Part shown: in pieces, positions 5,510 through 47,815 of the stretch
How positions within the stretch are numbered: position 1 is the first letter of the stretch
How the letters are laid out: every line of letters begins with the position of its first letter
Assembly (NCBI RefSeq): GCF_023278565.1
Contig: NC_064677.1
Span: 1,612,001-1,676,000 of the forward strand
DNA length: 64,000 nucleotides
Direction: 5' to 3'
Source: Colletotrichum lupini
Lineage: Eukaryota; Ascomycota; Sordariomycetes; Glomerellales; Glomerellaceae
Made by a program: the position numbers and the translations under genes
Notes under the pieces: generated by a model
Told to the model about the DNA's origin: nothing
Databases searched by the model: none
What the model saw: only the letters and a program-made list of their open reading frames with translations

Positions 5510-8500
5510 ACGGCTACCGTAAATTTTAGGCATTAATAGCACGACTTTCTTATATATATAAATAAATATTATAATAAATCCCGTATATTATTATAAAGAA
5601 TTACTTACGACCGTAAGTAGTAGCGGTTACGTAAGGGTAGTTATACTACTTAGTAAAAATAAAGTAACTAGGGGGCATATCCTCTTTACTAATTTTTATT
5701 ACTAATTAATTTCCCTTTCTTCTTAACTAACCTAATATTCCTTAAATAAGGTAAGTAATTTACTTATACCCCTATAGTTACTTATTAGCGACTATATTTC
5801 GCCTTATTATACTTTATACCCTTTTTTACTTTACTTTTATTATTATTACCTAATTATATACGTAATTATAAATATAATATTCGCAATTTACCAATTAGAA
5901 ATATTAATTAGGTATAATTAGGTAATTTTATACGCAATTACTAATATAATCTTTACTAACTAGTAATTATATTTCTTTTTAAGCTAATATACGCGTAATT
6001 ATAAATATAATTATACGTATATACTTATTTATAATTTAATTCTTTTTATTTACTTTTTTCTTTAGTATTAACTATTTACGTATATATACTAATAATTTCG
6101 TATAGGACACTCCCTTTTTTAATAATTATATATACCGTATAATATTTATAATAAGCGCTTAATATAGCGTTCCGGCCCGTATTAAGGGTATATAACTTCT
6201 AATAGTCCCTATATACTAACCTACGTAGTACTTTAACGACCTTATATTTTATAAAATAACCTCTTACTTTTTTATTAATACGTATACCTCTATATAATAG
6301 TTTCCTTATTATATAGATTCTTACGTTATTTATAAGCTCTTTATCTTCTTTTTTAAAGACTTTTTACTAAATCTATAACTTTAGTATTATATAAGTTAAT
6401 ATATACTACCCTATACTATTTAATATTATTATATTAACTTATATAAGCTAGCCTTAGCGTTAGATTAAGCTTAACCTTAAGATTACTAAGAATAGCCGTT
6501 ATATACCCCTAGATATTACCGTAACTTATACTTAGGTTACTAATATTATTTAAATAACCGTATATAATAATACTAAGACTAGTGCCGAGTCGTGCGCCTA
6601 TTATAAGGCTAGTAAAAGTATTTTTACTAATTACGTTACTTTTATAAACAAGGGCTATTTTAATTATAATTATATATTTATTATATACGAGTATACGCTC
6701 GTTACGCTTCTCATTATTACTTATACATTACCTTATACTACTTTATATTTATTTATAATTGATTAACGGTTCGTATTAATTCGTAATATACTTATTAAAG
6801 TCGTTAAGCGTAGTTATAACTATAAAAGTCGTAATAAAGTCCGTATCGGCGCTTTACTTAAGTTTTTAAGTACTATCCCCGCTATATACCTTTATATAAT
6901 AATAAAAGCCCTTAAATAAGTAGCTAAATAAGCTAAAAATAAAAAAGAGGGTATATATAATAATATATAAGATTATAAAGAGCGTTATTAATTTATATAG
7001 ACTTTAAATAAAGAGTAATTAATTTAATATTCTTATATAATATAATATAAGAGTTTATATAGGTATATATTAGGATATAGTATAATTAGGCTTAATACCT
7101 AGGTAATAAGGCCCCTATAGAGTTATAAAATACTTATTAACTATAAGCTAGAGTATACGCGCTTAGTTTAGCTTATAAGAAGCCGTAACTAACTATATAA
7201 AAGCTCCTCTTAAAGTTTAACGTTTTTAGTAAAATTATAGAACTTTTATTTATTATATATTATTATTATATACTTTTCTATTTTTGTTTAGCATTATAGA
7301 TCCCTATAAGCGTTTATATATTTATATATATACTTATAAAACCTTATAAATAAAAAGATACCCCTATATATCGCTATAATTATATATAAACATTTACCCT
7401 TTACTTAAAATTTCTTTTTTAGTTTTTTATTTTATATTTTATTACTTTTTTAAAATAGTACGACTACGTATTAATCTTTTACTATATTAAACGATAGTTA
7501 TTATAAAGTTAAAGAGTAATTAGACTTATAATATAATTATTATATATATTTTTATAATTTTTAATATTAGAATTATAAAACGAACTTTTAAACGTTAACT
7601 TACGAAATAGGATTTATAACGAGAAGAGCGTACGGTCTTTTTTAAGGATCTATTAATTCGTATTTAAGAATTATTTTTCTAATAATACTTAAATAATAAA
7701 GATATCCTTTTTTAACTCTAGTCTAAAGGATTTATAATTACGGCTATAAAATTATTAATACTTCGTTAATAAAATTAGCTTTAGTAATAATAAATACTAA
7801 AATAGCTCGTAATTATATAATAACGATTAAAAGAGTTCTTTTTTAATATATTAGAGGTTACTTACCGTACTAAAGGGTATAGTAAAAAGTATTTTTATAT
7901 ATAGGTTCGTTAATAAGCTTATATTATTAACTAAAATAAACTTTACTCTATATATTATAAAACCTTTTTATAATAAGTTTAAAATTAATTAAATAAGATA
8001 AGGTACTATTATAAAAGGTTTATAACTCCTAAATTAAATTATATTTAGTCTTTAAATACGTACGATAAGCTTTTACTATTTAGATTTAACATCTATATTA
8101 ATATTAATACTTATTTATAGTTTATTATATAATTCTATATAGGGGTTTTTACTTATATATCCCGGAATATACTTATATAATATCTTATTATTATTTAATA
8201 ACGGGGATTTATATTATTACGAGTTCGTTTAGACTAAGGGAAAGAAACCGTTCTTATATTTAATATTTATTACTACTTTTTTTAATATTATTTAATAATA
8301 AAAAGTCTAATTATATTCCGTAATTACTAAATCTTTAGTAAAAATATTTATAACGTTAAAATTAGGAGTTAATAAAATCGTTTTTATTAAAATAGATTAG
8401 TATATTAATAAGTAAGTAATATATATTTTAGTATATATAAGTATACTTACGTTTATAAAAATACTTCTAACTACTTAAGTTCTAAAGGCTATTTTATATA

Positions 8501-10340
8501 AATATACTTTTTAACTAAATTATATTTCTATTTACGTATATATTACTAATTCGTTCTAATTTTATTAACTTTATATAAATTTAGAACTCTTATTAAATTC
8601 GTTATTAAAAAGGTCGCCCTTATATTATTTTTAGTTAGCTATAGTAACTATATTATTAACTTACGTTACGAACTATATAAGATTTTATATAGCTAATTAA
8701 CTAAGACTAAGTTTAATAACTATTAAACGCTATTTAGAATAATAATAATCTAGACGCATATCTTTTTTAAGCTATTTTATAAATTTATACCTTAATTATT
8801 AAGGGCTCCTTAATTATATTAATTAAAAGTACGAAGTTTAGTAAAGCTAATCATCCTTATTTTAAAGCGTATTAATATTTTTATATTTATTTAAAGTAAT
8901 ATATACGTAATAAGCTCTAACTTAAAAATACTTTACTTAGTAAACTATAAAGTAATATTATATAAATTAAGTAGAGATTAAAAAACTTTAGAATTAATTT
9001 TAAAATATTAAATAGCTTTATAATTACGAGCGATACTAAGGACGAAAAGGAATCATAAATATAATTATAATTTACTTTAAACTATTTATTAACGAGAATG
9101 CTCGTTTTTATTCTTATAATATATTAAGTTATTTATTATTATAAACTTTATCTTCTTATTAAACTATTATAATCTTATTTTTCTTATCGTTTTTATCCTT
9201 TTTAACTTTTTTCTTAGCCTTAATTTCTTTTTTAATAATCTTCTTTTTTTACTTAATTAATAATTCTTCTTTAATCTTTATCGTTAGTTTAATATTAATA
9301 CTTATTAAAAGCTGTGTTTTTAGAATATTTTTATACGTCGTTTTACTTAAAGTTTTAGTTATAATTAGCTTTATATAACCTTTTCCCTTTTTTACTAGCT
9401 AAGGTTTAATAACTAATAACTTAATTCTAATTTAAAAAATAATAAAAAGTTAATAATTATCTTTTTTATATAAAATCGTAGCTTTAAAAAAGAATCTCTT
9501 TAAACTTATTGCTTCGTATACTACTTTATAATACTCTAAAATATTATAAGGATTTTTTATATTAATTAGAAATACTATTTACTCTATTAAAAGAATTTAT
9601 TAATTTATTATAAAATATAAAATAATAAATCGTATTATATTTTAATATAAAATAAACGTTAAGAAGTAATTAAACTAAACTTTCTTAATAAACTTCTTAA
9701 TAACTTAAATATTAATATAAGTCGTTATTTAAAAACTATTAAGTTAGTTTCTAAAAAAAGATATATTATATAATATAATGAAGATATTAATTATTAATAA
9801 TTACTTTAGTTCTTTTTTTATTTACTAAATACTTCGTTCTCGCTCTTTTAAGCTTATAAAAAGAGATTTTATTAATATTAAAGTTTATACGTTTATATAT
9901 TCTTATTATATAAAAAGGGCAGAGCCTATACAAGTATTATTATTAATTAGTCGTTTTAAAATAGCTTTATAAAGAAGTATCGTAAGGTTAATTAGTTTAG
10001 TAACGTCTTATATAGAGGTTAAAAATTATTATAGATTTATATTATAATATTTATAAACGAGCTATTAGTTTAATAACTTAAGTAAAAAGTAATTTTTATT
10101 TATAAAAAGGTAAAAAGTAATAGGTATTTTTATAATAAAGTTATAAGGAGAAAAAAAACTTTTACGTCGGGGTATAATATTATACGATTTTATATATTAT
10201 TATATAGTTTAATATATTATAAAATTAAAATATTTCTTAAGCCGTAAATATTTATAACCCCTATTTATAAGTTATTATACTAGTCTAGACCTTATCCTAG
10301 GTAGTAGGGTAACCGTAAAATACGATTTCTACTTTAATAT
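5510..10340. repeat. RIP-degraded AT-rich repeat block, probable LTR-retrotransposon remains
   Basis: Nearly 5 kb of very AT-rich DNA in which CpA and TpG are almost absent while CpG persists, as expected after heavy RIP. No intact gene, LTR pair or terminal inverted repeat could be identified. One plus-strand relic near 10030-10200 reads, with stops, as KNYYRFIL...NNLSKK...FLF, resembling the region after the reverse transcriptase of Ty3/gypsy pol (NYYRRFI...L..L.KK..F.W). The right part is therefore tentatively plus-oriented gypsy-like pol. The rest is unclassified. Confidence 0.7.
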
Positions 10341-11616: not shown

Positions 11617-13305
11617 TCACATTACTGAGCACAGATCCCCCCAATCAGTTCGTTGATCTACGAAGATGGAAAACACAGGTTGCCCTTCTAACATCCTCGT
11701 CTCCATCCCCAGGCTTAACACCACCGGTCTATCCTCAACCCGCCTACTCATACCAAACGTAATCCTCGTTTTCATAACCCCACGCTCGCTGCCAAGCTTG
11801 CGCAACTTCATCAAATCACCGCTCATTGCAGTTTGGAAAATGTGTTTCGTCTCATTTTTGTTAGCTGCAAGACACACCCAAGGATTCGCACCACCGCCAG
11901 TGAAACCACACGCGACGATAAAGTTCTGGTCAGCCGCGCCAGACGTTCGGTACTGAACGAATCCGTCAAATGTGTCCAGTCCCTGAGTGATAAACATGCG
12001 CCGGGACGAGCTCCACATGCCGTCGGGCTGGGCCTTGACAAACTCCACCCCTGGCGGCGTGGGCGGAAAGCAGAAGGCGTTCCGGTAGATGGAGTCCATG
12101 TCCCCGACGAGCGTCTCTGCCACGTCTGGCTCGAGGAACTTGCTGATGAACATCGTGTGTTTGATGCCCGGTGCGCTGTGCTCCAAACTCCAGAGCCGGC
12201 CGGTCTTCCAGCGGAGGAAGACGTTTCCACCTTGATCTCTGAGAAGAATTCCGAGGTGACGACGGCCTTGATCGCTGGATCTATGGCAACGGAGACTTAG
12301 GAAATGCGCACCGTCGGGCATGAGACTGGTTTCGGTCGTGATTTTCAAGCCTTTATTTGTGATGGCGTACTTGAGAAATTGGTGTCAGTTCTTCGAACGT
12401 TACACAGCTGACTTGATTCAGCTGAAAACTCGGGGGCAGGTCTCGAGACATACCTCGGGGTTGTACTTGATGTCGCTGCTGAGTACGATATCATTCGCTG
12501 TCTCAAAAGCCGATGGAGACATAGCCAGAATCCCAAAATAGCCCAATGGAGATTCTGCTGGTGCAGACCAAGCAAAGATGGACAAGTCGTTGGTCTCCTT
12601 GGTGATCTCTTCCTGCAGTCGGATGAACGCTCTGTTTCCCTCCCCATACAGAAGCGGCATCTTGACTCCAAAAACTCCCAAGAGACAGTACGCCAAATCT
12701 TCTTCCCTTTTGGTCATGCGCCCAGATGCCCAAGACATTCTTCTGGCAACAGGTATTGTCGTCAAAAGGCCTTCCACTCTCCCGCTTCCTGCCACGAGTA
12801 TGCTCTTGTCAATGTTTGTGCGCTGTTGGATGATATCGCACAGATCTGATCGACTTCCAATGTAGTTCCAGTCCTTATCAAAGAATTCAACCCGCGAGGG
12901 GGCGATGAGCTCCTGCAAAGTCCATCCACGAGTGAACCATTGGGAATGTTGAAGTGAAACTCCGTCAATGCCCACATCCGACAGGTACGCATAGCAGATT
13001 GAAGATCGCGCGTACCACTTGAACATGGAATTGATGGCTTCCGTCAGCTCTGTGAAATCCTGTTTGTTGATGCAACAAGTATCAACCCATGCATATTTGT
13101 AACCTTGCTGCAATGCAAGTCGACAGAAATGTTGAATCTTTTTCCATCCTTTCTTGCGCGCTATCACATCAGGCTTTCCAAAATCTTGGTAGGTTGCCTC
13201 TTCATGATCGGCTTCCCATCGGTGGGAAAGGATGGCATACGATTCAGGTATAGACAGCCCCAAGAACTCCTCAATCAGTAGGCTAGAGCAATTGAGAAGC
13301 TTCAT
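11617..13305 (-). CDS. HET (heterokaryon incompatibility) domain protein
   Basis: Member of the fungal HET-domain family, used in allorecognition-linked cell death and innate-immunity-like responses. Exons 13305-12454 and 12369-11617 (GTATGT...AAG intron, phase 0) give 534 aa. The N-terminal HET domain (about residues 22-175) shows the characteristic blocks YAILSHRW, KKIQHFCRLALQQGYKYAWVDTCCINK, AINSMFKWYARSSICYAYLSDV, and FTRGWTLQELIAPS. Typical flanking motifs follow: the RMSWASGR...TKREEDLAYCLLGVF block and PLLYGEGNRAFIRLQEEI. The C-terminal ~240 residues are not a recognised repeat (no WD, ANK or NACHT seen). The start Met fits the usual short N-terminus of the family. It lies beside the UstYa/precursor cluster, but shared function is not implied. 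Confidence 0.93.
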
Positions 13306-13838
13306 GGCGATGGGGGCACTGAGGGAATGAAGCTGGAGCGATTGGAGAATTTGAAGAGAATCGCGAAAGAAGACGACATATCAGCCCCAAATCTTACGCA
13401 CATATCAACTAGTCTTCTCTAGGAAGATCATCGTTGCAGCTCAACATAAGCTTGGAAAACTGGCACCAGGCAGACGTCCCATGGTAAGATGCCTCGTAAT
13501 CCATTGGACCATTGATGACCATAAGTGGGGCTTGAGGCTCACAAACACACAAGGTAACTGGCGAGACTATTCTATTCACTTGCCTGGGCTTTAGCTTCTT
13601 GATGTACGAAAAAGAAACCGTACCCATGTTGTGACCATGGCTGTGGTTGCCTCGCAAAGTGAGCACGCCAAGATATCAATGTAAGGTACTTTGATGCCCA
13701 TTCTGTTTCTCTCACATGTATCTTGGTTAGTGGTACACCAAGTTGAAAGCACGGCGATGTTCAAAAATTATATTTCTTCGGCCTATGATGGAATGAATGT
13801 TTTACAAGAACCTTTCTTCGCCCAAGAAACTGTTTCTC
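13306..13838. other. intergenic region between HET and UstYa-like genes
   Basis: No supported gene. The HET gene points away from this region and the UstYa-like gene points into it, so it holds the upstream region of the former and the 3' end of the latter. Confidence 0.5.
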
Positions 13839-14799
13839 CTAGTCATCGTATGGATCGCTCTTTCCGTGCTGATGGCTCTCTTTTGTCTCGCCGTAAGGGT
13901 CTTTGAATGTACTCGAGCTCGCGCTTTTGTGCTTCGCGCCCGTCTTCTCGGCCGTGATACTCTGATCTTGGTGTTTATGAGGCTTCGCGATGTGAAGCTC
14001 ATCGGAGTGAAGCGCGACACCAGCCTCGGCGGCAATGTGATCGAGAGGATCCCTCATCAAGAACATGGTCATGCAATGATTGATGTGCATGAGAGTGTCG
14101 TAGCGTTTCTCAATGACAAGCATGCCGTCCTTGCCGCAAGATGCGCCCGCGACTCCCCGAGAACAGCGCGCTGCCTCCCACATCTTGCGCCAGTAGAACA
14201 CGCAATGCACGAGATGCCATTGGTGCGTGGTAAAGAATCGAGCATATTGACCATGGCGGGCCGCCTCTGGTAATTGGCTCACTTCCTCCAGTGTCATGGG
14301 ATGCGTCTGGTTCTTGTCATGCCAGTAACCCCAGGTGTTGCCTGTTGTGTCGGGTTCGTTTGGGCCCAGAGACTCGAACTCTGCCGTTAACTCAGGAGAC
14401 CGACAGTGTGGTGGAAGCCAGGCGGCGGCAAGTGAATCGTACACGCAGCCATTCGCGCGGGCTTCTACGATTGTTTCACCACAGTTGCAAGACATGGGCT
14501 GCATTTGAGAGTTGGCTGGGGAGTCTGATGTGAGGAGAGAGTAAAGACCAAAGGCCGCCAATGACACTGTCAACAGACGACCTGCGCATAACACGGCTTG
14601 CCCAAAAACATGAAATTTGCCTCTTGCTGAGACTTGAATTCCATCTTCAACATGCGGCTCGGTATTTTCGTCTCCTGGAAGCCAAGCGTACTCCGTTTTG
14701 TCTTTGTTTGTCCATGGTACAGTAAAGATTTCGAGACTAAAGTCCTGAATTGTTAGCACAGTAGCTTCTACCCTCGTGATGCGCTTACATTTTGGACAT
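13839..14799 (-). CDS. UstYa/DUF3328-like membrane-anchored protein 1
   Basis: UstYa-family proteins act as oxidases or cyclases in fungal RiPP pathways and are anchored by one N-terminal membrane helix. Here one such segment (AVLCAGRLLTVSLAAFGLYSLL) precedes a luminal domain with the two family motifs HxxHC: HLVHC in HQWHLVHCVFYWRKMW, and HINHC in MHINHCMTMFLM. The C-terminus is a long His/Lys/Ser-rich tail. The main exon is 14736-13839. The start is tentative: a tiny first exon 14799-14789 (ATG in good context) joined by a GTAAGC...GCTAAC...TTTAG intron yields 302 aa beginning MSKILEIFTVPW. The alternative GTG-initiated frame at 14759 overlaps that branch site and is unlikely. It lies ~1.1 kb downstream of the repeat precursor on the same strand, which suggests a shared pathway. 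Sequence fit to UstYa is weaker than for the gene at 17291. Confidence 0.75.
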
Positions 14800-15934: not shown

Positions 15935-16379
15935 TTAAGGGTAGAAGGGAATTGCCTCAGCTTCCGCATCGGCGGAGCGCTTTGGGTAGAAAGGGATGGC
16001 CTCAGCCTCAGCCTCCGCGCCCCTCTTAGGATAGAATGGAATGGCTTCAGCTTCGGCATCAGCACCTCTCTTGGGGTAGAAAGGGATCGCTTCGGCTTCC
16101 GCATCAGCATCCCTCTTCGGGTAGAAAGGAATAGCTTCCGCCTCGGCGTCAGCACCGCGTTTGGGGTAGAAGGGAATGGCCTCGGCTTCCGCGTCTGCTC
16201 CTCGCTTAGGGTAAAACGGGATGGCTTCAGCCTCCGCATCTGCTCCTCGCTTAGGGTAAAAGGGAATTGCCTCGGCTTCAGCGTCGGCTCCGCGCTTGGG
16301 GTAGAAGGGAATAGCCTCCGCCTCTGCATCAGCTCCCCTCTTTGGGTAGAAGGGAATAGCTTCAGCTTCGGCATCTGCT
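15935..16379 (-). repeat. 45-bp in-frame tandem repeat, ten units
   Basis: Coding minisatellite inside the precursor gene. The unit encodes 15 residues with a Kex2 KR site, an acidic X-Ala spacer and an IPFYP core. Copies differ mostly at synonymous positions, so they are not very recent duplicates. Confidence 0.95.
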
Positions 16380-16534
16380 CTTCTGACATCTTAAACAGGT
16401 AGCTCAAGTCAGTCGTCTTCTTACTAGTTACTCAGGTAGTTTGTTGAAGCGCTTGCTGTCTTCCAAGATCACATACCGAGAGGGGCGGCAGCCACGAGGC
16501 CAATTGCAGCAAGAATGAGGTACTGAGCACGCAT
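15935..16534 (-). CDS. Kex2-processed repeat precursor, candidate dikaritin-type RiPP precursor
   Basis: A secreted precursor peptide of 170 aa. Exon 1 (16534-16477) encodes a signal peptide, MRAQYLILAAIGLVAAAPL. An 87-nt GTATGT...TTTAAG intron follows. Exon 2 (16389-15935) encodes ten tandem units of 15 aa (45 bp) of the form GADAEAEAIPFYPKR; the tenth ends at IPFYP followed by TAA. All ten IPFYP cores are identical in protein although Ile, Pro, Phe and Tyr codons vary, which implies selection on the peptide. Unit starts vary (R, G, D or S) and one spacer has E for D. KR is a Kex2 site, and the alternating X-Ala spacer (GA-DA-EA-EA) is the kind removed by Ste13-like dipeptidyl aminopeptidase. 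This layout matches precursors of ustiloxin/phomopsin/asperipin-class RiPPs, and UstYa-like genes flank it. An alpha-type mating pheromone is the alternative, but the core lacks the Trp and Cys usual in Sordariomycete pheromones. A TATATGG-like element lies about 90 bp upstream of the start. Confidence 0.9.
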
Positions 16535-17290
16535 TGTGACTTTCTACTGGGCGTGATTGATAAGAGAGACGTTGGTAGGACTTGGAGATGGCTAGTTCAA
16601 GAGAAAGTCTGGAGGCCGTTCCCTGTATATGGTATTTGAAGAAAAGTCGCCTTTGACCTAATTGACGCCTAAATCACGCATCATCTGAGATAAGTCGAAG
16701 CTGTGTCCTCCTTGTACGGACTTTAGCCGCCAGTGACGAAAACTTGCCTGGAAGCACGAAGAAGTCGGGCGGGATCGCGTCAGTCCGGACGCTCGATTAC
16801 CACTTACACGTACGGAATGTCGGTCTCCTGCAGCTGCAGCCAAAAGGTCACAAAGATGTTGACAACCGGGTAGAGACTGTTACAAACGAGGAAGGTTGCA
16901 TCGGATGCTTCGAGATGGGCAATGGAGTTCACGACATCAAGATCAGCTACCCAGACGTTTCACCGACATGCCAAGCCAGACGACGGATTCGAAGGATCTC
17001 TCTGCGTCATGTAGTGGAGTTGTAGGAGTTGGTAGTTGTAGTCCCGCTCGCCTCCTCTTATCTTTCAGGCAGGTACTTAGACATCCAAGCTTTCGAGTGC
17101 AATGGGGAGGGTGTTTACCTCACATGAATTGATTGGGCAAGCTGATTTTACTCAATCGCTTGCTTATGCTGACTACCTTGAACGAAGCGATGACACCTTC
17201 CCTCCGTTCGATAGCAGACTCCCTTCACTTCTGTGACCTACTTGCTAGACTTCCTATCTTCTCGCACATGAGTTGTTGAAATACAGGACC
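16535..17290. other. divergent promoter region of precursor and UstYa-like gene 2
   Basis: The precursor reads leftward and the second UstYa-like gene rightward from this 756-bp region, so it probably holds both promoters. Small open frames are present but unsupported. Confidence 0.55.
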
Positions 17291-18327
17291 ATGATGAATG
17301 AAATATACCGATCATCAACAGTCTCATCGGAAGCTTCACATACAGAAGATGGTCTCTCGGGATGTTTCGAAGAGAATGAGGACCCCGAAAAGACTCTACT
17401 GCCTCACATGGACACCAAGGCAGGATCTCGAAGTGTTGGGAAGGATACTTCATTGTTGAAGCTCTGCAGTAAAAGGCTATCTCTAGTGACTTTCCTCAAC
17501 ATTTCACTCTTTGTCGCCTCTTTCACTTTGTGGCTATGGCCTGCACCGTTGAGGCATCCTATGAAGACCCAGGACTATTGGAAAAGAACCTCCTTTTACT
17601 GTGAGTACCCAAGCTGTCAAAAGCCTTTCAGCCCGATATGCTAAGTAGACGTTCAAGCACCGATACTTGAGCGCTTCGATATACCAAAAATCAGCAGAGT
17701 GACGAACGGCACTTTATATGACACGAATCCGCCCTCAGTCTTTCGCCAGCGAATTGGCAAAGAAGCCGATAGGGAGTGGCATCGTATCGGTGACCATGTC
17801 TGGCCTCTCGTCATTGGGGAAGCGGATGTGAGGCAACTTGGAAAGGACCCACGAGTCGCTGTCAAGATTCCAGAAGTTCTTGGCTACGGTTCAGATGCAT
17901 ATATTGCGCAAACAGAAGTTTTCCATCACCTCCACTGCTTAGATATGCTGCGCAGGGAAATATCATACGAGCATTGTAAGTTTCTCGATATGAAGTGAGT
18001 ACGCACTTCTGACTCCTGAGTATAGACTATGAGCCCAAAGAGGGACCTTGGCCAGGAGGAGCTCAGCATCAAGCCCACATCGGCCACTGTTTCGATATCC
18101 TTGCCCAAGCAATCAAGTGCACCGGGTCGGTGGACATGATAACTTTCAACTGGATTGAAAATTGGGAGCAACCATTCCCAGATTTTATGAATCACAAAGT
18201 GTGCCGTGACTTTGACGCCTTATTGGGCTGGGTCAATGAGAACTCCATGGACCCGAAGGTCTTTCAACAAATGAAAGCGCCTCCGCCTGGGTGGCCTGTC
18301 ATGCCAGAGCCAGGCCCGGCATCGTGA
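17291..18327 (+). CDS. UstYa/DUF3328 family protein 2 (RiPP cyclisation oxidase type)
   Basis: A typical UstYa-family protein. In ustiloxin-type pathways such proteins are required for oxidative cyclisation of the core peptide. Exons 17291-17600, 17658-17975 and 18026-18327 give 309 aa, with frames preserved over GTGAGT...AAG and GTAAGT...TATAG introns. A cytoplasmic tail of ~65 residues is followed by one membrane helix (LVTFLNISLFVASFTLWLW). The luminal domain starts at YSPILERFDI and includes TNPPSVFRQRIGKEADREW. It carries both HxxHC motifs: VFHHLHCLDMLRR and HIGHCFDILAQAIKC. The ending is Pro-rich (PPPGWPVMPEPG). It is divergent to the precursor gene and upstream of the DOPA-dioxygenase-like gene. 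Either Met at 17291 or the next codon could be the start. The family call is secure; participation in this pathway is inferred from position. Confidence 0.92.
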
Positions 18328-18644: not shown

Positions 18645-19426
18645 ATGACCATGGTTACCCAATCTACGCCTCCGACCCCGCAGACGGATCTGAAGACGGT
18701 GGTCGAAGCTCGGACTCGGGAATGGCATTTCCACATTTACTTCCTCCTACAGTCCCCGACTGAGACTTCTGCTGCCCTTGCTCTTCGTGATGCTGTTTTG
18801 AGATTGCGACGCGACGGTAGGTTTGAAAGACGACTCTCACCTGGACGAGATTGTTTGAATCATTGCTGATACCCACGGTTAGGCGCGTTCGTTGCTGTCC
18901 CACTATTCAGGGTCAACGAATTTCCTATCGGACCACACCCAGCGGGATCTTATGAGAGTAAGTAGTGCCAAAGTTCATCTGCATGTAAGTATGAGACAAA
19001 GAGCTCGATTGACCAAAAGTTCGCATGTAGTCTGGGTTCCCGACTCCTCGTTTTCTGACGTCTTTTTCTACTTGGCGGCAAACCGAGGTAACTTAAGGTA
19101 AGACCAGAATCAGTAATTGCTTTAACTAATCATGCTGTCTTGATGCTTACATGTGCTCAAAACTTAGTGTCCTCGTACACCCATTGACATCGAGTCAACG
19201 TCGAGATCATGAGACAAGGAATGCCTGGATGGGTACTCCGTGGCCTATTTACCTTGACAGCTTGCCATCCGATGGCGATGTTCCTCTTCAATATCCCGAA
19301 CTGGGTCTTGGTTGGTCCACTTCGCCGGAGCAGGAGATATCCTTGGAGGAAAGGTTGAGTAGGGGTGCAAAGGTTGAGGCTCTGTTAGCTGATGACCCAG
19401 AGGCTGCGCCTGCGCCTAAGGATTGA
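18645..19426 (+). CDS. DOPA 4,5-dioxygenase-like extradiol ring-cleavage enzyme
   Basis: Resembles the fungal DOPA 4,5-dioxygenase family, which opens the catechol ring of DOPA (betalain-type and muscaflavin chemistry). Four exons, 18645-18816, 18883-18957, 19031-19097 and 19168-19426, give 190 aa, close to the usual family size. Splicing assembles the conserved His-rich blocks: WHFHIYF near the N-terminus, GPHPAGSYEIWVPDSSF, LAANRGNLSVLVHPLT, and RRDHETRNAWMG. There is no signal peptide, so a cytosolic enzyme is expected. It starts 317 bp after UstYa-like gene 2 on the same strand. If it belongs to that cluster, the target could be an oxidised tyrosine derived from the IPFYP core, but no tyrosinase is visible in the window. 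Substrate is unproven; the family also contains uncharacterised members. Confidence 0.88.
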
Positions 19427-20168
19427 GAGTTTCTCAGCTCCGACAGTGCGCGCCAATTACAATGCTAAGGTAACTTGATACCGTTCGGATTTCGCCTCAC
19501 TGAAGTATGAGAAACTTCCAAGCGATGTCGCTTCGTGATGTGGGTCGTGGATTGTAAGAACCTCGGAGCACGTGTGACATAGAAAAGTAATCAAATACAA
19601 GCCCTTGATGATTGTCTTCGAAAGCCATAAGCCGTGTACGAATTCGCCGCACTTCCAGTCTGTCATACCTATCACTCGGACACGCCGGCCACGGCCAACT
19701 AGGACGTATGGCAGGACCAATGAGTTGTCAACTTGTCCACTGCTGTTAGATGAATGAGTGGATTGCTCTCAGTCTGCTGCCCGAATTGTGCGACTATCAA
19801 CTGTCAAGTTCGGATAGCATCTCGACCAAAAGGAAGTACACAGGCGAGTCGCAGAGTTTGCCTTGTTACAGAGATGTTTGCTCAAGTCTGCTGTTCTTGT
19901 AGCACGTCGCGTGGGACGAGATGGCATATGTCCAGTACGCACGCTATATATTACGCCATCCCGCGAACTATGTGATGTTCGCGATAGTCTTCAACGAATC
20001 TTGCCTACTTTGGATGACTTTTCTTAGAATTCGTAACATTCACCAGAAGCACATCCATGACAAATCGAGTAAGTCTCCGCCTTGACTTAGAATAGAATGA
20101 CATTTATCTTGAATTGACTGACTCTAAACCCGCCAGACAACTATACAATAACAATAACGTCTCTAAAC
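19427..20168. other. intergenic region, no supported gene
   Basis: No coding or RNA feature could be supported between the dioxygenase-like gene and the small secreted protein. Confidence 0.5.
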
Positions 20169-20519
20169 ATGAAAAGCGCCGTAATCATTGTCGCCGTGGT
20201 ACTCACCCAAACGTCATTGGCCGCCTTTTGTGCAGCGTCCGCATATCTTGGGGCAGGACGACCTGGTAGCTGTACCGGACAAAATCTGGGCCATGGGAAT
20301 TCGTCTCGACCAGGGGTTAGCGAGTGCTTCGAGGCAATCAATGGTGCTTGTGGGCTGGTAACAGATCGAACAACTGGGGGAGGTTGTAATTGCACTATCA
20401 ATTTCTTCTCTGGAGGGGATTGCAATCGCACTTCCGTGGGGTCTTTGCGCTGTAACAGGGTTGGTGCATCACTGCAAGTCAACTTTGATCACTTCAATAT
20501 TCGCTGCCCCAGGGATTGA
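20169..20519 (+). CDS. small cysteine-rich secreted protein (hypothetical, effector-like)
   Basis: A 116-residue open frame without introns. Residues 1-18 form a clear signal peptide (MKSAVIIVAVVLTQTSLA). The mature part has nine cysteines, is rich in Gly, Asn and Ser, and contains a CNC motif within GGGCNCTINF and NxT/S sites. No domain is recognised. Size, secretion and cysteine content resemble fungal effector candidates or antimicrobial-type proteins, but no function can be assigned. A short related sequence about 270 bp downstream (near 20641-20675) looks like a decayed duplicate of the GGGCNCTI segment. Confidence 0.7.
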   Translation: MKSAVIIVAVVLTQTSLAAFCAASAYLGAGRPGSCTGQNLGHGNSSRPGVSECFEAINGACGLVTDRTTGGGCNCTINFFSGGDCNRTSVGSLRCNRVGASLQVNFDHFNIRCPRD

Positions 20520-21144: not shown

Positions 21145-22359
21145 TCACCAGGGATACCTCCGGACTTCGTCTTCTTTGCTCAAGTCCAGATCTCTGTCCA
21201 GCTGTTTCTGATGTTCATTATCGAGGTACTCTAGCAGTACCTTCTCATACATTTCACGCCCCTTGTAGTTTGCAACTGTATCATCCCAGCTACGAATAGC
21301 ACTAGCGAGTCTTCCAGGCACGTAGTCCTCCGCAGCCAGCTCAGTGACTGGATGAAAGTACGTTCTTATCGTGAAGACAATAGCCTTGCTCTTGGGAAGA
21401 CGGCGCAGCGATTGCCTCTCGGAACGAAAATAGTGATGCTCAACCGCTCTATCTTTCTCAGCCGTACTCCAACTGACAACTGGGCTGTCTTCTTCGCCAA
21501 TGCTCCAGCTCCAGGGCAAAGAGTCATCGACCTGGATGAAGTAATTGTTGCGGGAGTAAATCTGGTCGCAGCGCAGGCGCTTGAAGAAGCTGGCCATGCC
21601 GTTGTGCAGCTTCTCCTTGTAGTGGGGGACCTCGCCAGACGTGTGGATCTCCTCGAGGGACATGCCAAACTTGTCGCTCAATCTCCAGAAGCCGGCCAGC
21701 AGGATGGAACCGCTGAGCAAATAGTACTTGCCGTCGGGCCGTTCGATCATGATGGCGAGGTCGTCTTGCACGAGCCTAGCGGCAATGGCGGCTGGGTCTT
21801 CCTTGAGAGGTGTTTCGACGATGTTGAATGATTCCCCCGACCAGAGATTGTCGATGCCGACAGCGGTTCGTTTGAACATCGTAGGATAGCGAGCGGGAAG
21901 ATACTGGCACAATTCTTCTAGAAGCTCCATGGCTGCAGGATAGGCCTCCGGGTCTGTTCCGAAGCACTTCTCGCCCCGTTCAGCGATTCGAGCAGTCTTG
22001 TCGGCATGGTATCGAGGATAGTGGTTGTCCAGCTCAATCCAGTCCTCAGGCTGGACTGAACGAAGGCCCATGGTGACGTTATATTTGGGGCCGTAACGAA
22101 ATGCGCGATAGGGCAGAGGCTTTGTTGTTTCTACTGACCAGTCCGGGTAGGGACTGGGAATCGGCATCTGCCATGTTTCTGAAGCTTGTTTGGACTTTTC
22201 AGATTGTGTTGTAGAGGATGTCTTATTGAAGAGGGCTCCTTTTCGCGGTCGCAGCGCGCCAAGCGATCGTGAGAGTATGGCTGCTGAGAAGAGGGCGAAG
22301 AGCCCGATGAGAAGTTTCCAACCATCCGAGGGGAGTTCCGATAACGCTAATAGGGCCAT
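21145..22359 (-). CDS. HODM alpha-subunit-like (DUF3445) protein 1
   Basis: A single-exon gene of 404 aa in the family of haem-dependent oxidative N-demethylase alpha-subunit-like proteins (Pfam DUF3445/HODM_asu-like). In fungi these are often mislabelled as mannosyltransferases. The Met at 22359 was chosen because it opens a membrane anchor (MALLALSELPSDGWKLLIGL...FALFSAAIL). The open frame extends 65 codons upstream without conserved sequence. Family blocks visible are PYRAFRYGPKYNVTMGLRSVQPEDWIELD, LCQYLPARYPTMF, DDLAIMIERPDGKYYLLSGSILLAGFW, RLSDKFGMSLEEIH, and near the C-terminus ERQSLRRLPKSKAIVFTIRTYFHPV. It is convergent in position with a cupin and a Zn2Cys6 regulator and has a paralogue at 29164. 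The reaction is known only for bacterial relatives (dimethylamine-type N-demethylation); the fungal substrate is unknown. Confidence 0.85.
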   Translation of the reverse strand: MALLALSELPSDGWKLLIGLFALFSAAILSRSLGALRPRKGALFNKTSSTTQSEKSKQASETWQMPIPSPYPDWSVETTKPLPYRAFRYGPKYNVTMGLRSVQPEDWIELDNHYPRYHADKTARIAERGEKCFGTDPEAYPAAMELLEELCQYLPARYPTMFKRTAVGIDNLWSGESFNIVETPLKEDPAAIAARLVQDDLAIMIERPDGKYYLLSGSILLAGFWRLSDKFGMSLEEIHTSGEVPHYKEKLHNGMASFFKRLRCDQIYSRNNYFIQVDDSLPWSWSIGEEDSPVVSWSTAEKDRAVEHHYFRSERQSLRRLPKSKAIVFTIRTYFHPVTELAAEDYVPGRLASAIRSWDDTVANYKGREMYEKVLLEYLDNEHQKQLDRDLDLSKEDEVRRYPW

Positions 22360-23045
22360 GTTGAGGTACTCTGTGTGACCTGGAGTTTGGTAATCTACTA
22401 GTACCCAGTTAGGGGGACGAAAGGCACCCGAGGTTTGGATGAGGCCTATCTTTGCTGGGGATAGTTGGGGTGCACATATGAAGGAGGTACTGCAGAGGCT
22501 AAGATGATCTCCAGTGAATTCAAGGAAATTGCAGAGCATTATCACTGCAGCCAACTTTTCGAGTCAGCTACGTATTAGGAAATACCTTCCAGTAAAGACT
22601 TTGGTTCCGCTATCCGGTCGGCACCCCGTCCCACGCCCGTATCTCTTCTCCAGACTCGTCCCCGCAAGATCGGCTCCCTCTGGGAACCGATTCTCCACTC
22701 AACCGTTCCGAGTTGGACGGGGGATGCGCTTTACCGGAACAGGGAATTTTACCCTATCGTCCTATCTTCCAAGTCGATGCTTAGGGATCCTTCTTTGGCA
22801 AACTCGCGGGAGTGAAACCGAACCTTGTTTCTGGGTGTCTCCAATGCCTAGAATGAAGAGGCTTTCTTAGAGATTTGGGGTATTGCCTAAAGAAGCATTC
22901 TTACACTGATGAATAGAGCTCTATATATATACCAGGTGAATGGGCAATGTTGAAATATGGTAGCATCACGCACTCAATAAAGATTTGACATCATCATACT
23001 CACCACTATTTTCCCAATAAATTGCATCGAATATTGATCATCACA
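22360..23045. promoter_or_regulatory. divergent intergenic promoter region, HODM 1 and cupin genes
   Basis: This 686-bp region separates the leftward HODM-like gene from the rightward cupin gene and should hold both promoters. A TATATATATA stretch at 22921-22931, about 120 bp before the cupin start, is a plausible core element. Confidence 0.5.
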
Positions 23046-27600: not shown

Positions 27601-29164
27601 TCATTGGACAGTCCATTTCTTCTCCCAGCCCTTGAAGAAAGGCGCTTCTGCTAAGGTCTGCGGCTCCCAATCCTTCTCAATCAGGCCATTCTCAACCTGA
27701 TACTTCTCATACTCCTTCAAAGTCGGCTTGACCACGTGCTCTACATGCCATGTTCCTTTGTACTTCAAGAGGCTCTCCTTACCCTCGTTCAACACTTTAA
27801 GAACCAAAGAAGGAATATAAGGCTCATTTTTGAACTCAGTTAATGGCGTGAACAGGGCTTTGAAATTGAAGACAACGCCGCCAGACAACGGGAGACGGCG
27901 CAAGGTCTGCCAGTCGACGCGTAGGTGAACCTCTTCGGGCTGAAGGCTAGGGGTTTGATGCTCGCGATGGGAAAATTCGGGGTGTTCGGAAGGAAGATAC
28001 AGCGGCTGGCCTTTCTCAAGACCCCATGAACCACGTTGAATGGGTTTGTTGGTGGGCATCTTAGTGAAGAATCTAGAGCTATGTCAGTGATAGGAACTTT
28101 GAACCATCAACCGCACTCAGATTGGGGTCTTACCGATCCATGCTGAATTCCATCTTTTCTTTGTAGTCTGGGACAACTTTGTGTATGCCTGGCAGCCCCA
28201 AGCCCACCTTTTCGCTGAGTTTCCAGCCAACAGAGGAGCATATTATTCCGGCTCTCAGAATATACTTTCCAGTCTCGTGATCTCGAAGCATGATTCCAAA
28301 GTCCTCAGGGACATTGTCCAAGAGCACAATCAGTGGCTCAGCGGCAGAGAGATCTGTCGTTGTCCCAAGAATGTTGTTGTGCAAGATGTTACTCTCGAGC
28401 TTGAATTGATTGGGATATCTTGCGCAGATAAACTGAAGGACCATTTCCATAAGTTCTTTGCAGGCGAGCTCGGAGCCGGGCATGCTATCGAGAACATCAC
28501 TGCCATTCTTTGCGTACAGATCTTTGCGCTCGGCAACGCGCTCCCTGTATGTGTTTTCAAGCTCGATCCAGAAATCCGTATCCATCTTGGTTAAAGCTGG
28601 CAGTCTTGATATGAGTTTGAGTGCACGATATCTAGAATCCTGGCGGGACTTACACATGGTCTGATGATAAGCCCATCTAAACGGTCGGTAGGGCCGCGGG
28701 ACGGCCTTGTCAATGTCAAAATCTGCCAATGGCGACGGCAACGGAACACCTGAGATAGTTGCATAGTCTGGAAAGTCGCCGAGTTTCTGAATGTCATCAA
28801 TGCTGAAGCCACTGAAGTGGAACAGAGAGGGGTCGGCGGATCGGTAGTCGGCATCCACTTTCAACAGAGGCTTCGGCGTCACGGCGAGGTCAACCTCTTT
28901 GACGTCCGCGAATTGTGGTCCAAGCTCCGCAATTGTTGCTCTTTGAGACGGCGGGAACGCGTCCACATAGCTCTGTTTCTCGGCCGTAGTGACGGAAGGC
29001 TTTTCGGCCGGCTGGCTGAAGGACGGGGCGCGGTTGAACCTCGAGAAAACCCTCCGGCTGTCAATGAGACTGCTTATGAGATAGAGGAGGGCACTGGTGA
29101 GTGCGGCGATGCCAAGCACTGTTGTGACGGCATAACGGTCACCGAGTTCAATCGCGGAGGACAT
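27601..29164 (-). CDS. HODM alpha-subunit-like (DUF3445) protein 2
   Basis: Paralogue-family member of the HODM-like gene at 22359. Exons 29164-28654, 28596-28134 and 28072-27601 give 481 aa. The first intron (57 nt) keeps the frame and removes a segment that would otherwise interrupt the conserved YHQTMSLTKMDTDFWIELE block; the second starts GTAAGA and ends CTCTAG. The start at 29164 (MSSAIELGDRYAV) leads into a membrane helix (VLGIAALTSALLYLISSLI); an upstream in-frame Met at 29194 is possible. Conserved blocks are RPYRPFRWAYHQTM, LQFICARYPNQF, DFGIMLRDHETGKYILRAGI and WQTLRRLPLSGGVVFNFKALFTPL. The N-terminal extension (about 110 aa before the core) is longer than in paralogue 1. The two proteins differ strongly, so this is not a recent tandem duplicate. 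Substrate unknown. Confidence 0.85.
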
Positions 29165-29810
29165 TGCGGACGATTCTTTGCCTCTGTCATACAAAATGAC
29201 TTAGCACCGATACGTCCATTTTCGTCGCTGGAGGCTAGGGGATAAGTATTCGCAACTCGCGAGCACAACTATGGTCTATCAAGATGCTCAGAACACAAGT
29301 CACAGGGTCGAGTAGATGCATCTGGTAGATTTAGCCAGCAGCCGCCTCTATGCTACCGTTTGACCATCCGCATGATGCGGCGCGTTACAGTCTTGAGGGT
29401 AAGACGTCGTCTTTCACACCCTCACCGGAACCGGAAAGATTATACGGACGAGAGCTTGAGCCTTGATCCATTTTGCGTCACAGAGTCTAGCCCAATTTGT
29501 TAAATCTACCCGGCACCCTCTCTCATCCACTGATGATGCAGCGATAAGGTCAGGAACATGGGATGCGGGATGACCCCGCTTGATGACGACCCTGGCTTGG
29601 ATGTCTCCCACGTCTCCCACGCTCCTCCGGCTGTGCCCGCAAGCCCGTTCCTCACGCGGCTCGACGCTGCGGAGGCCGCAGCGCCCGTGCATCTCTAATG
29701 CTGTCAGGGTTTCCTTGCACGTATCCGTAAGCTCCTATCAAACGACACTCAGCTGCCTAGGTATTGCAGTGCTACTAGAAGCCAATGTTTAGCTATACTC
29801 CATACCTACG
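29165..29810. other. intergenic region up to the copia element
   Basis: No supported gene. It holds the upstream region of the second HODM-like gene and ends at the GTAAG target-site duplication of the copia element. Confidence 0.5.
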
Positions 29811-29815: not shown

Positions 29816-30020
29816 TGTTAGTATCCCTATTACAGGGTAGTTAGTTCGAACCGTAGTTAACGAAGAGATCAATTGAACTATATGAATATCTGCGTAGTAA
29901 GTATAAAAAGGAGGTTCTAACCGTAAGTTAGGCTAGCTATGATAATTATAAATAGGGCCCTTAATTAGCCCCTACGTAGTTAGCTATACGCCGTAGTTAA
30001 ATTAAACTTCTAATTTAATA
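29816..30020 (-). repeat. copia LTR, left (3' LTR of the element)
   Basis: 205 bp, aligns end to end with the copies at 36462, 37960 and 53247. The ends are TGTTAGTATCCC and, after RIP, AATTTAATA in place of AATCCGACA. Confidence 0.9.
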
Positions 30021-31019
30021 CTAATTTTCTCTTTTTTTTATTAATTTAGTTACTATAGTTAGAGGTATAATTCGACCTCGGGCCTATTTACTAAGTCGTC
30101 TCCTTTTCCCCCTTTTTTTTACTCTTTTTATATAACCTATCCCTCTATTTATATAGTAACTTTTTTATTACTTACGAATTACTCTAATCCCTTATTTAGT
30201 ACTACTTTTATAAAAGCGTTTATGAGGTTATTTTTATTATTAATCTAATAGATTTTAAATATCTCGCGCTTTTTATATAATTACCTAAGGGCTATAATAT
30301 CGATTATAAGCCTTTTTTCCTTCGTCGTTCTTAATTTAACGAGGTATTTATATAATAAGTAAGAATTAGTATAAATAACCGTTAGAATAGGTAAAAGGCT
30401 AATTCGATTAGTAATCTTCCTTAGCATTATTAAAATTATATAAGAGAGGTTAACGCTATTAATTATACTATAAACCTCTAACGCTAATATACTTCTCGTT
30501 ACTTACTTATTTTTGATTAATAAGTAGTAAATTATATTACTATATATAGTAAATTCGCTCTTACTTATACTCTCGTTAGCTAGGATAATAATATACCCTA
30601 ATTACGAAATAAGGTCGTTATTATTTATAAATAACTTATTAATAAAGACGTAGAGCTTACTAATTATAAAGTCGATTAAGTAATAAACGAGACCTCGATC
30701 GAGATTCGTTTACTACTACTTAAGCCGCTTATTAAGTACTTTAACGTCCTATTTAATTAAATTTATAGCTTACGCTACCTTAGCGTAATTAAACGTTACT
30801 TTAGGTTAATAAATACTTATAATATATACCCCTCGCACGAGCTTAGCTTTATACCGCTTTTTAATATTAATTACGTTTAGATCGACGAGGTTAATCTTCT
30901 TACCTTACCCCTTTTATTAAAAGACGACGGTTTCTTTTTTAATTATAAAAATCCCGCTATTAAATACTAAGGGGGTGTTTATTATAAGGACCTCTTTTAG
31001 TTTTACTATAAAGCCCGCT

Positions 31020-31260
31020 TTCTAAAGCTCCTTATTCTCCTTTTTTATAAAGTTAATATTAAATAAGCTTAATATATTATCGGTCTATATTCTAACGATT
31101 TTAAATTAGTTACTTTTATACTCCGCGACTAATAAGTACGGGTCGTACGTAGAGGTAACTATTAATAATTAATTAATATAAAAATCGTAGTAAGTAGCTT
31201 ACTAATAAGTACCCGATTTTATAAGCCTATATAATAGCTTAAGCACTTTAATAATCGTGC
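31020..31260 (-). pseudogene. copia reverse-transcriptase relic
   Basis: Minus-strand translation reads KVLKLLYRLIKSGTY, two stops where Trp codons would lie, ATYYDFYIN, then STYDPYLLVAEY and TDNIL. This is the recognisable copia RT segment ('LYG...GTYWW.TY' and 'TYDPCLL...QTDD'). The stops are TGG-to-TAG/TAA changes typical of RIP. Confidence 0.85.
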
Positions 31261-34200
31261 TTTCTAAGTACTTATTAGCTATTTCCTTTAGTAAATAGGC
31301 TAGGATTTTCCTTATAAGCCCTATAACTAATTAGGTATAGGCCTAGGTAATATTACGGCTCTAAATCTCGTATCCCTTCTTCCGTAATAATACTATTAGT
31401 ACTATTATTAATCGTTAGTTATAGCGCTATATAGTGGGCGATTATATAAGTAGCGTCGCCTTTTTAACATCGCCGTACCCCTAAATTACGTATTTAGATT
31501 TCTCATACGGCTAGGGTGTTCTTTTCCCTTTAATTTTACGAACTATTCGTAATTTAAATATATAGAGGTTTATATATTTTTTTAGGTCGTATAGGATAAA
31601 TCGATAGACCCCTCGATTACGAAGAGTATTTATTTCGATAAGATCTAATCCTTTATACGGCTTTTTAGTAGTTATAATTACGCCTTTTTTACGTAGTTTA
31701 ACCGCTAGCTTGAAATCGGCTTTCTCTTTTATTATATAAAAAGTATTAATTACTTTATTATTATTAATAAATTGCCGCGTTAGGGCTTACCGTCGTGGTT
31801 TTTTATAACGTCTTGCTAGTAGTATTAGTACCCTTTTAGCAATTTCCTTTTCTTTATTATTTATTAGTACTATTACGACGATTTCGTTAAGGATAATTTT
31901 TTATACTTTTACTACGGGTTATATAGTTTCCCTTAGCTCTTCTTCTTTTTATAAGTTAGAAATTACTTCGTTAGGATTTATATAGTACGGTTTAACTACC
32001 GTAATTAATATTTTAAGTAGCTAGTTACGATCTCTCGCAACTATATAAGAGCGCTCGTTAATAGAAATTAACTTACATAGCCTAGCCTATTATTCAGTAA
32101 TTTCGCGCTATACTCGTATATCCGAATTTAGTAATATATTTAGATTATCTATTATATCGGGCCTATTATACATAGTAATTACTTCGTTAACTTACCTTCT
32201 TATACTTACCTCGCGCAATACTTATATTACTTTTTTAATTACTTAGGCTCGTTAGCTTATGCCTAGCGACGGTAGTAAGGCTAAGGTCGTTTTTAAATAT
32301 ACTCTAAATACTAATAGCGTTAATATAAGTCTATTAGGCCCTATAGTATCGTTATAGTATTTAAGTACTATTTAGAAGTATTCGTCGTCGGTAGAATCTG
32401 GATTTTCCTTTTTAATAATTCTAAACGCCCTTTTTAATTATTAGTATGCCCTCTCTACCTTTTTAATACTATAGTGCGCTTTAATAAGTACGACTTTTAA
32501 CTATATACTATAGGCCGTTATATTATCCCTAAATTCTACTAACTTAAAGCTAGTACTAGCGTCGGTTCTAATACTATCTAGCGGTCCTTAGTATATATCG
32601 ATCTAGCTTTTTCGTAGGGCTACTTATACTATCTTTATTTATAAATCCTAGAGGAATTGCCCTATTTAGAAAGATATAGATATGTCGATTATATATAATA
32701 CTAGCTAACTATTTAAATAGAAAATATCGACGACTATTTCTTAGTTAAAGTTAAGCTTATTACGTAATTTAAACTTAAATCTGCGTGGGCTCTGCGTATT
32801 TATTTAGTATTAGTAATATACTTTTGTTAACTACTCTAGCGCCCCTATTTTAATATTATTATTACTTAATTACTTTAGGAAGTTATATAGCCTCGTAACT
32901 TACGGGTACCCAAATCTCTAGTATAGTTTTCTAAGCTCACTTTCCGTTAAATAATTAATTAACTTCGTATTATTAATAAGCTTTATAAACGCATGCCCCT
33001 ATTATTATTTAACTATTTCGAAGTACTTACCGCTAGAGATTCTATTCTTCGTATTATCGAATATAATACCTAGTCGATCTATATCTTTTAAATATAAGAG
33101 AAATGGGGTATTAACAGGTAAAATATAAAAAGTTATCGTTCTAAAGTATATCTCTATTTTTATTATACTTAGGGCGACGATTTCCTTGCCTAGGCCGAAA
33201 CTAATCTTCGTAATACCCGTTATTAATATATTAAGCGTTACTAGCGCGATCTTCTATAGTACCTAGAATTACCCTTTTTTTTTAGTTAACTATTATAATA
33301 CCCTAGTATTTAGGATAATCCTATAAAAATCGTCTAGGCCGTACCTTTTGCTTATATAGAATGCTTATACGAGCTTAGTATTTAAGGGATCTAAGTAGTA
33401 TAAAAAGGACCCCTCTAGCTACCCCTAGATATACTTAGTACTATATTCTTTTTCTTTAGATATTAAAAAAAATAGTATCTTTTCCTTAATTATTAAGATA
33501 ATAAGCTTTGGCCCTATTAGATTCGCCCTTTAGGCCGCCTCCGTATCCGTTATCTAAGGGACTTTCTTTTACTATTTATAAATAAAAGCCTACTTATTAA
33601 GAGCTTTTATTACTCTTTATTCGTTTAGCCTCGTATATCTTCTAGAGGCTAACGGGGTAAAAAAAGAGTAGTTAATATTTTCGATTTCGTCGTAATCTAA
33701 TTCGTTAGTATAAGGGGTAAAATCTTCCTTATCTTCTGAATCTCTTATAAGGGGTATATACTTTAGGCTACTACTTTAGCTACCGTCGCTAGGTTCTATA
33801 CCCCCGGATCTACCCTTATATATAACGAGGAATTAGTTAAACCGATAAGGGCTAGTTTTACTGTCTACTACCCTCGACTTTTTATACTATTTATACGATT
33901 TAGTACGCTCTTCCTCGGAGTAGTTACTTAACTAATATCTATCCTTTTTATAAATATAATATTGCTTTTTTTATTACCCTGCTCGTAAGTTAAATCTCTA
34001 CCCATTCGATAAATCTAGGCTTTTTTATTAGTAATTACCGTATTTAGCCTCTTTTCTTTTCTTATTATACGTTCGATCGACCTAATATTACTAATAAGGG
34101 CCGTTATACGCTTAGAAGTAAGTTTAGTACGGTATTCTTACCTTAATATTAAAGCTAGATCTTAGCCTCGAGTAGAGCGTCTCGTAGTCTTTAAGTACTT

Positions 34201-36461: not shown

Positions 36462-36663
36462 TATTAATATCCTTATTATAGGGTAGTTAGTTCGAACCGT
36501 AGTTAATAAAGAGATTAATTAAACTATATAAATATCTACGTAAGTATAAAAAGGAGGTTCTAACCGTAGGTTAGGCTAGCTATAATAATTATAAATAGGG
36601 CCCCCAATTGGCCCCTGCGCAGTCGGCTATATGCCGCGGTCGAATTGGACTTCCAATCCGATA
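36462..36663 (-). repeat. copia LTR, internal copy
   Basis: 202 bp; differs from the other copies by a 3-bp deletion (CGTAAGTAT for CGTAGTAAGTAT). Its right third retains unmutated CpA/TpG-containing sequence (about 36598-36660), unlike its surroundings. Confidence 0.88.
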
Positions 36664-37959
36664 GTTACTAATTTCCGCTATCCCGTACACTTTTAGCCTT
36701 TTAAACCTCGTGCTCTCTATAATCTCTAAATAGCTTCTTTCCTTAACCTACCTTTTTTAGAGTAATATTCTATAAGAATAGTTAAAAATAAACGCTAGGC
36801 GGCTCGTAAAGGAGCTATATAGGCTATTAAGAACCGTATAGGCCGTTAAGTATAGTTAATAAAATTAAGCCCTCTTTCTTATAAAATCGTATATTTTAAA
36901 AACTTACTAAAAATACTTACTTATTACTCGTACGCAGTAGGGTTAAATACCTTAAAAATTTTATCTTTTATGGCCTTTTAATACCCTATTTTATATCTTT
37001 TAAGTAGTCTTTTTCGTAGCTTAATTACGGTTAGGTAATTATTACTTATTAACGATCCTTTTTATTACTTAGTTAATTTTTTAAAATTAATAATCTTATA
37101 CTAAGAGCTAGTATAAAAAGAAGCCCTTAAGCGGCCCTCTAGAGGATTCTTTTTTTTTCCTTTAGATCCTCGTTTTTTTAGCTTTTTTTTAAGCTAATAA
37201 TAACTTTAATAAGAGGTCGCAGGACTACTTTAGGATAGCTACTTTTTTTTTAAGTTAATCTCTAAGATTTATAATACCCTTAACTTAATACTATTAGGAC
37301 TTTTAAATCCCCTCCTCCCTTATTAAACCGTCCCTTATATTATATTCCTAAGTAATACCCGGGGGGTAGTTAAGGGAGCTACGAAGAGGTTATTTAGATC
37401 GCGGGCTTAAAGTCGTACTTATAAAATCCTTATAATAATAAACTTTTTTATATACCGTAAATCTCTTAGCTTAATAACTCTTATAGGGTTACTTTCGCTA
37501 CTAAGTAAAAATATTTACGTTTAGAAATCCCCTTTTTTAATTACGCAGTACTTTTTTATATTATATTATTAAGCTCGTTCGTTATGCTAATTAATTAAGT
37601 AGGTAGTCGTTACGTAGATATTTTTTTTTATTAATTTAACTAGTTAATTTCTAATTACGGGCCGGCTACGGAAAAGTCGTTTAGTAAAAAAGCTACTCGG
37701 GGCGACGGTAAAAAGCTAGTTATTTAAGCGGTTTTATTAATTAATATAGTTTAATATAGTAAACGTCGACCTCTCGTAAGTAGTAAAAGGCTACGATTAC
37801 TTAATTCCGTATAATATTTAAGAATCGCCTCCTTTTTTATTTATTTTTATAAAGTTAATTAGTACGAATCTCTTATCCCGTACGGTATTAAGAGGTCGTC
37901 TCTTTTATATAGCGAGATACCTTACTAATTTATAATAATAAAATTTAATTACTAATTAG

Positions 37960-47754: not shown

Positions 47755-47815
47755 AGTCAGAACACCCCCATTCGGCCACCCCCCCCATTCGGCCACCCCC
47801 CCCCATTCGGCCACC
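47755..47815 (+). repeat. left terminal inverted repeat with iterated unit
   Basis: Begins AGTCAGAACACCCCC and contains three copies of CATTCGGCCACC separated by C runs of different length. C/G-rich and spared by RIP. Confidence 0.9.

Follow-up and report, generated by a model that had tools for sequence, protein, structure and literature searches.

The window analysed here, a stretch of 64,000 nucleotides of the Colletotrichum lupini genome (C4:1612001-1676000), contains a small gene cluster which probably directs the formation of a dikaritin-like ribosomal peptide (RiPP), with trimming of the kexin/Ste13 type and oxidation by a pair of UstYa-family proteins. In this cluster the exact core IPFYP, repeated in one precursor, adjoins two candidate cyclising oxidases.

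The precursor gene is located at 15935..16534 on the minus strand, with the start ATG at 16534-16532 and the stop TAA at 15937-15935. The sequence-only reading had given the same boundaries with no strand. There are two exons, and the splice sites were judged from sequence. Exon 1 (16534-16477, minus strand) encodes MRAQYLILAAIGLVAAAPL, a predicted signal peptide by eye, and is separate from the exon with the array. The most canonical choice of intron is 16476-16375 (minus strand), with a GTATGT donor, a branch-like CTGAC and a CAG acceptor. A second possible acceptor at 16390 (AAG) adds DVRRA, and the ten cores are kept with either acceptor. Exon 2, from the intron end to the stop at 15937-15935 on the minus strand, carries the ten IPFYP cores. 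The open stretch with repeat units (15938..16390, minus strand) follows the pattern (G/D/S)A-(D/E)A-EA-EA-IPFYP-KR with a period of 45 bases, and a tandem repeat of period 45 and 9.8 copies covers 15938-16380.

Translation and the codon table confirmed what had been noticed from the letters: IPFYP occurs ten times at exact 15-residue spacing, followed by KR in nine units and by the stop in the tenth. In the whole genome searched (63.4 Mb, 12 contigs), the pattern IPFYP-KR had nine matches, all inside this array, and the reversed pattern had none. Ten cores, nine KR sites and a signal-like exon (by eye) agree with a Kex2-processed repeat protein (KEP), and the form of the unit supports the proposal that Kex2 sites separate the repeats of the precursor and that its X-Ala spacers are of the Ste13 type. 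A search for relatives of the precursor scored 61 candidate proteins, of which none reached E of 1e-3, and it also gave no characterised pheromone precursor, the kind of match which had been named as evidence against a RiPP. Given this absence of a protein match, mining based on annotated proteins may miss the precursor. In the open-licence PMC literature no related report on IPFYP was found (one match, unrelated by title).

The ten units were compared codon by codon. The core showed pS of 0.75 and pN of 0, and the six-residue spacer showed pS of 0.93 and pN of 0.014. The five columns of the core that vary are all at the third position of a codon. With the minimum of nine changes in the core taken as independent and random, all of them would be synonymous with a probability of about 1.3e-6, which is a crude figure. 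Synonymous sites are near saturation, and both core and spacer are under constraint. The selection that had been claimed from an invariant core with variable codons is therefore real, but invariance does not pinpoint the peptide: the spacer is nearly as invariant as the core, so the N-terminus of the mature peptide cannot be fixed by invariance alone. Split into dipeptides, the unit becomes GA-DA-EA-EA-IP-FYP, and trimming could go on to FYP if nothing protects the Ile-Pro bond. The selection is seen within the array only, because the precursor is without relatives among the proteins searched.

The precursor lies between a gene of the UstYa family and a divergent candidate for the same family. 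They had not been seen in the sequence-only reading, and they support its preference for a RiPP over a pheromone. UstYa-a (17291..18327, plus strand; exons 17291-17600, 17658-17975 and 18026-18327) matches PF11807 and has the motifs HHLHC and HIGHC. Its spliced protein showed 95% identity over 100% with Colletotrichum abscissum P0121, and the homologs found at E up to 1e-3, 56 in all, included Colletotrichum, Aspergillus and Paraphaeosphaeria proteins. No relative of the ortholog P0121 was found in a PDB sequence search. Two features of dikaritins are present here, namely a UstYa-family (DUF3328) gene beside the precursor, as the PF11807 gene at 17291-18327, and Tyr in the repeated core, as IPFYP in 10/10 units. 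Precursor and UstYa-a are divergent genes with 756 bases (16535..17290) between them, and their positions make a shared promoter in this gap possible.

On the opposite side, 1135 bases from the precursor, there is UstYb (13839..14799, minus strand), a divergent UstYa-superfamily candidate with the exons 14799-14789 and 14736-13839, the first of which, with 11 bases, is predicted. It has a membrane-anchor-like segment (by eye) and two HxxHC motifs (HLVHC, HINHC), while a Pfam scan gave no PF11807 match for UstYb itself. Of the 10 paralog matches of UstYb in its own genome, 9 have a PF11807 match at a distance of 8 kb or less, and the other (C4:693182) is without one nearby. The paralog L057 scored above the PF11807 cut-off, and four other paralogs tested were below it. 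Alignment of UstYb and paralogs against UstYa-a orthologs by hhalign gave a weak probability of 32%, single-sequence structure prediction of UstYb was uninformative (mean pLDDT 37), and a PDB sequence search gave one match with E of 0.93. Two HxxHC motifs and the genomic company of the paralogs make UstYb a candidate member of the UstYa family. A HET-domain (heterokaryon incompatibility) gene (12421-13380, minus strand) adjoins UstYb.

In the survey of Umemura 2020, DUF3328 genes were enriched beside Tyr-rich repeat precursors. It reported a DUF3328 neighbour for 1758 of 7878 repeat precursors, with a peak at the next gene, and Tyr was present in 65.6% of repeats with a DUF3328 neighbour versus 38.2% of those without (PMC7329392).

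The following route to the product could be drawn from these genes. The precursor would enter the secretory pathway, and kexin would cleave after every KR. The KR would be removed by a Kex1-type carboxypeptidase, and the GA-DA-EA-EA spacer would be stripped by a Ste13-type dipeptidyl aminopeptidase to leave IPFYP. UstYa-a and UstYb would oxidise the core, most likely with a bond from Tyr4 to the N-terminal Ile, and this Tyr4-Ile1 link would shield the Ile-Pro bond against further trimming. A Tyr-Ile or Tyr-Phe crosslink, with a ring that would stop X-Pro trimming, had been suggested before and is plausible as proposed chemistry. We infer that the gene is expressed and that the steps follow this order. 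Candidates for the trimming enzymes are encoded in the genome: there is one match of the kexin type, and matches of the DPPIV type occur at three places.

The same trimming enzymes could also release a pheromone. The precursor might encode an alpha-type pheromone or a linear secreted signal, freed by kexin, Kex1 and Ste13 as unmodified IPFYP (FYP if Ile-Pro is trimmed), and the UstYa genes would then be bystanders. According to Le Marquer 2019, Ste13 signatures, the XA/XP dipeptides after KR, are in Ascomycota as a rule limited to alpha pheromones (PMC6339444), and the (G/D/S)A-(D/E)A-EA-EA before the core agrees with the dipeptide pattern of an alpha pheromone precursor. Two pattern searches gave no convincing classical pheromone elsewhere in the genome, so the pheromone gene of this genome is unaccounted for, but the pattern counts were at chance level (4 vs 5 reversed controls; 7 vs 5) and carry little weight. 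The alpha-pheromone-like WCKRQGQPC in L037 was a single copy with no repeats in frame and was judged as chance. However, IPFYP has only five residues and is without Cys or Trp, which is unlike Sordariomycete alpha pheromones with their motif of Cys and Trp. An alpha pheromone gene is expected to have a pheromone-like core and no UstYa neighbour, and this precursor has a different core and lies between a UstYa-family gene and a candidate for that family. In the survey of Umemura 2020, a DUF3328 neighbour occurred beside none of the 227 precursors of the yeast alpha-factor type and beside 3 of the 216 of the fungal-pheromone type (PMC7329392). So we consider a pheromone or linear signal unlikely.

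The dikaritin-like RiPP is the better explanation, and X-Ala spacers beside UstYa genes point to a mixed architecture. Ste13 spacers, as in pheromones, and UstYa neighbours, as in cyclic RiPPs, are joined here, and the survey largely separates both in Ascomycota. The earlier idea of a RiPP is supported, but its wording that dikaritins arise from precursors with Ste13 processing needs correction, because STE13 is not predicted to process the ustiloxin and phomopsin precursors (PMC6339444). It has been proposed that RiPPs of this kind derived from mating-factor precursors (PMC7329392, PMC9233826), and the combination of Ste13 spacer and UstYa bears on that proposal.

The precursor was also compared with other UstYa regions of the same genome. 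There are 32 PF11807 matches genome-wide, and the 13 other regions fetched cover part of them. Six of the 13 (L038, L040, L041, L043, L045, L050) contain Kex2-type repeat arrays, which favours the RiPP reading, and their repeats are distinct, such as QDDAKAYKR, ADESYLPM and FVTEPEKR. By eye, none of these six arrays has a run of three or more X-Ala dipeptides after a dibasic site, which sets the window precursor apart from the others of its genome. One more hit, in L047, came up in the scan and was dropped as AT-rich low complexity; the repeat scan found no array in the remaining six regions.

Several enzymes of known dikaritin clusters are absent. None of the 40 PF00264 (tyrosinase) matches of the genome is within the window. 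Among the 29 window ORFs given to Pfam, which cover part of the exons, none was recognised as a methyltransferase or a peptidase, and there was no obvious Tyr hydroxylase among the window ORFs scanned. Tyrosinase and methyltransferase belong to the early five-gene definition of dikaritin clusters, and the window genes include neither; some later clusters are without some of these genes (PMC12048977). Ustiloxin and phomopsin need tyrosinase (PMC7329392), and tyrosinase-less dikaritin clusters are described, for example asperipin-2a (PMC12048977, PMC6514808).

A Dopa 4,5-dioxygenase-family gene (PF08883; 18645..19426, plus strand) is located 317 bases past UstYa-a on the same strand, with four exons (18645-18816, 18883-18957, 19031-19097 and 19168-19426). 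The last exon matches PF08883 with 36.8 bits (cut-off 25) and a further exon also matches. The conserved His motifs of the family are present in the alignment to 2nyh, and by its sequence the product belongs to the family. It shares 187 of 190 residues with C. scovillei P0124, at the C-terminal side of that protein. In P0124, UstYa and dioxygenase are predicted as one two-domain protein, and its PF08883 score is 103.1 bits. Because P0124 carries both domains, the gene order in C. scovillei is the same as here. Two PF08883-family genes were found in the genome, and they are considerably different by alignment. Among the 56 listed UstYa-a homologs, three (from C. tofieldiae, C. musicola and Paraphaeosphaeria minitans) are named DOPA-dioxygenase, with only PF11807 as precomputed domain.

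These data might suggest a special form of the RiPP reading, in which Tyr would first be hydroxylated to peptidyl-DOPA and its ring then cleaved by the adjacent dioxygenase, giving a seco-DOPA or betalamic-type peptide instead of a simple macrocycle. The position directly after UstYa-a, the kept motifs, the presence of just two such genes in the genome, the fused protein P0124 and the names of the three homologs all point in this direction. However, adjacency in a species as closely related as C. scovillei weighs little, and the names of homologs are only suggestive. The dioxygenase model has no evident signal peptide (by eye), which is a problem for a substrate of the secretory pathway, and fungal PF08883 proteins may act on other catechols. 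Tyrosinase is absent from the window and no other hydroxylase is in sight, so the participation of the dioxygenase stays a minority reading, and we regard this DOPA cleavage as quite improbable. A broader idea is highly doubtful, namely a RiPP class over several ascomycete orders in which Ste13 processing, UstYa oxidation and extradiol cleavage of peptidyl-DOPA would lead to pigment-like or metal-binding peptides. No report on extradiol cleavage of peptidyl-DOPA or on UstYa-DOPA modification of RiPPs was found among the open-licence PMC papers listed. Action of the dioxygenase on the core, if it occurs, would be a RiPP modification new to these reports.

Two HODM_asu-like genes (PF11927 by Pfam, haem-dependent N-demethylase-like) are at 21148-22563 and 27604-29200 on the minus strand. 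The genome has three PF11927 places, and the two inside the window are about 5 kb apart. Both have a membrane-anchor-like start (by eye). When 8000 candidates were scored against the gene at 21148-22563, 1387 of them were related to it at E up to 1e-3, and the 120 relatives listed included many with Sordariomycete names. Its product showed 98% identity over 94% with a Colletotrichum nymphaeae protein, and this match and that of UstYa-a to C. abscissum place the organism in or near the C. acutatum complex. We judged the gene at 21148-22563 to be of general occurrence and do not count it as part of the cluster. Public names such as "mannosyl transferase" on its relatives look like annotation errors, as the precomputed domain is PF11927. 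The gene at 27604-29200, a cupin gene and a Zn2Cys6 regulator are possible further members. A small secreted-looking Cys-rich ORF at 20118-20516 on the plus strand (MKSAVIIVAVVLTQTSLA...) has no Pfam match and is effector-like by appearance only. AT-rich blocks (GC 0.18-0.34) at 6001-10000, 30001-38000 and 48001-50000 flank the gene block with the cluster and are possibly RIP-degraded repeats. A unit of roughly 18 bases forms short tandem arrays at 47765-47816 and 50710-50744, on opposite strands and flanking an AT-rich stretch, and the pair could be the ends of a mobile element.

Among known systems, ustiloxin, phomopsin and asperipin-2a share with this cluster a signal peptide, Kex2-cut cores with Tyr and UstYa-family cluster genes (PMC7329392, PMC6514808). 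Their cores YAIG, YVIP... and FYYTGY are different from IPFYP (PMC7329392, PMC6514808), and the dikaritin descriptions cited mention no PF08883 gene, whereas one adjoins UstYa-a here. Compared with ustiloxin and phomopsin, the cluster departs in three points: the alpha-factor-style X-Ala spacers, the absence of tyrosinase from the window and the adjacent dioxygenase.

The epichloecyclins of Epichloe (gigA) have an N-terminal Ile which is crosslinked to an internal Tyr (PMC9233826), and IPFYP has the same two residues in the same relative placement. The gigA cluster also shares a secreted, KR-cut repeat precursor and a DUF3328 (UstYa-like) gene (PMC9233826, PMC6514808, PMC7317419). It differs in that the GigA repeats are 27 residues long and yield cyclic peptides of nine and eight residues, and in that the cluster has four genes including its own kexin gene (PMC7317419). 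The epichloecyclin descriptions cited mention neither an X-Ala spacer run nor a dioxygenase, and both are present here.

In the Saccharomyces alpha-factor type, too, a dipeptide EA or DA stands after KR and before each repeated core (PMC6339444), but this type had no DUF3328 neighbours in the survey (PMC7329392), and its product is linear and unmodified (PMC6339444, PMC7329392); IPFYP is unlike an alpha pheromone. Repeat precursors with Ste13 signatures that resemble putative basidiomycete pheromones have the same type of dipeptides and a DUF3328 neighbour in 17 of 76 cases (PMC7329392). They belong to another phylum, and the cores are unrelated in one quoted example (PMC6339444), but with these 17 precursors the combination of Ste13 spacers and UstYa neighbours has a precedent outside Ascomycota.
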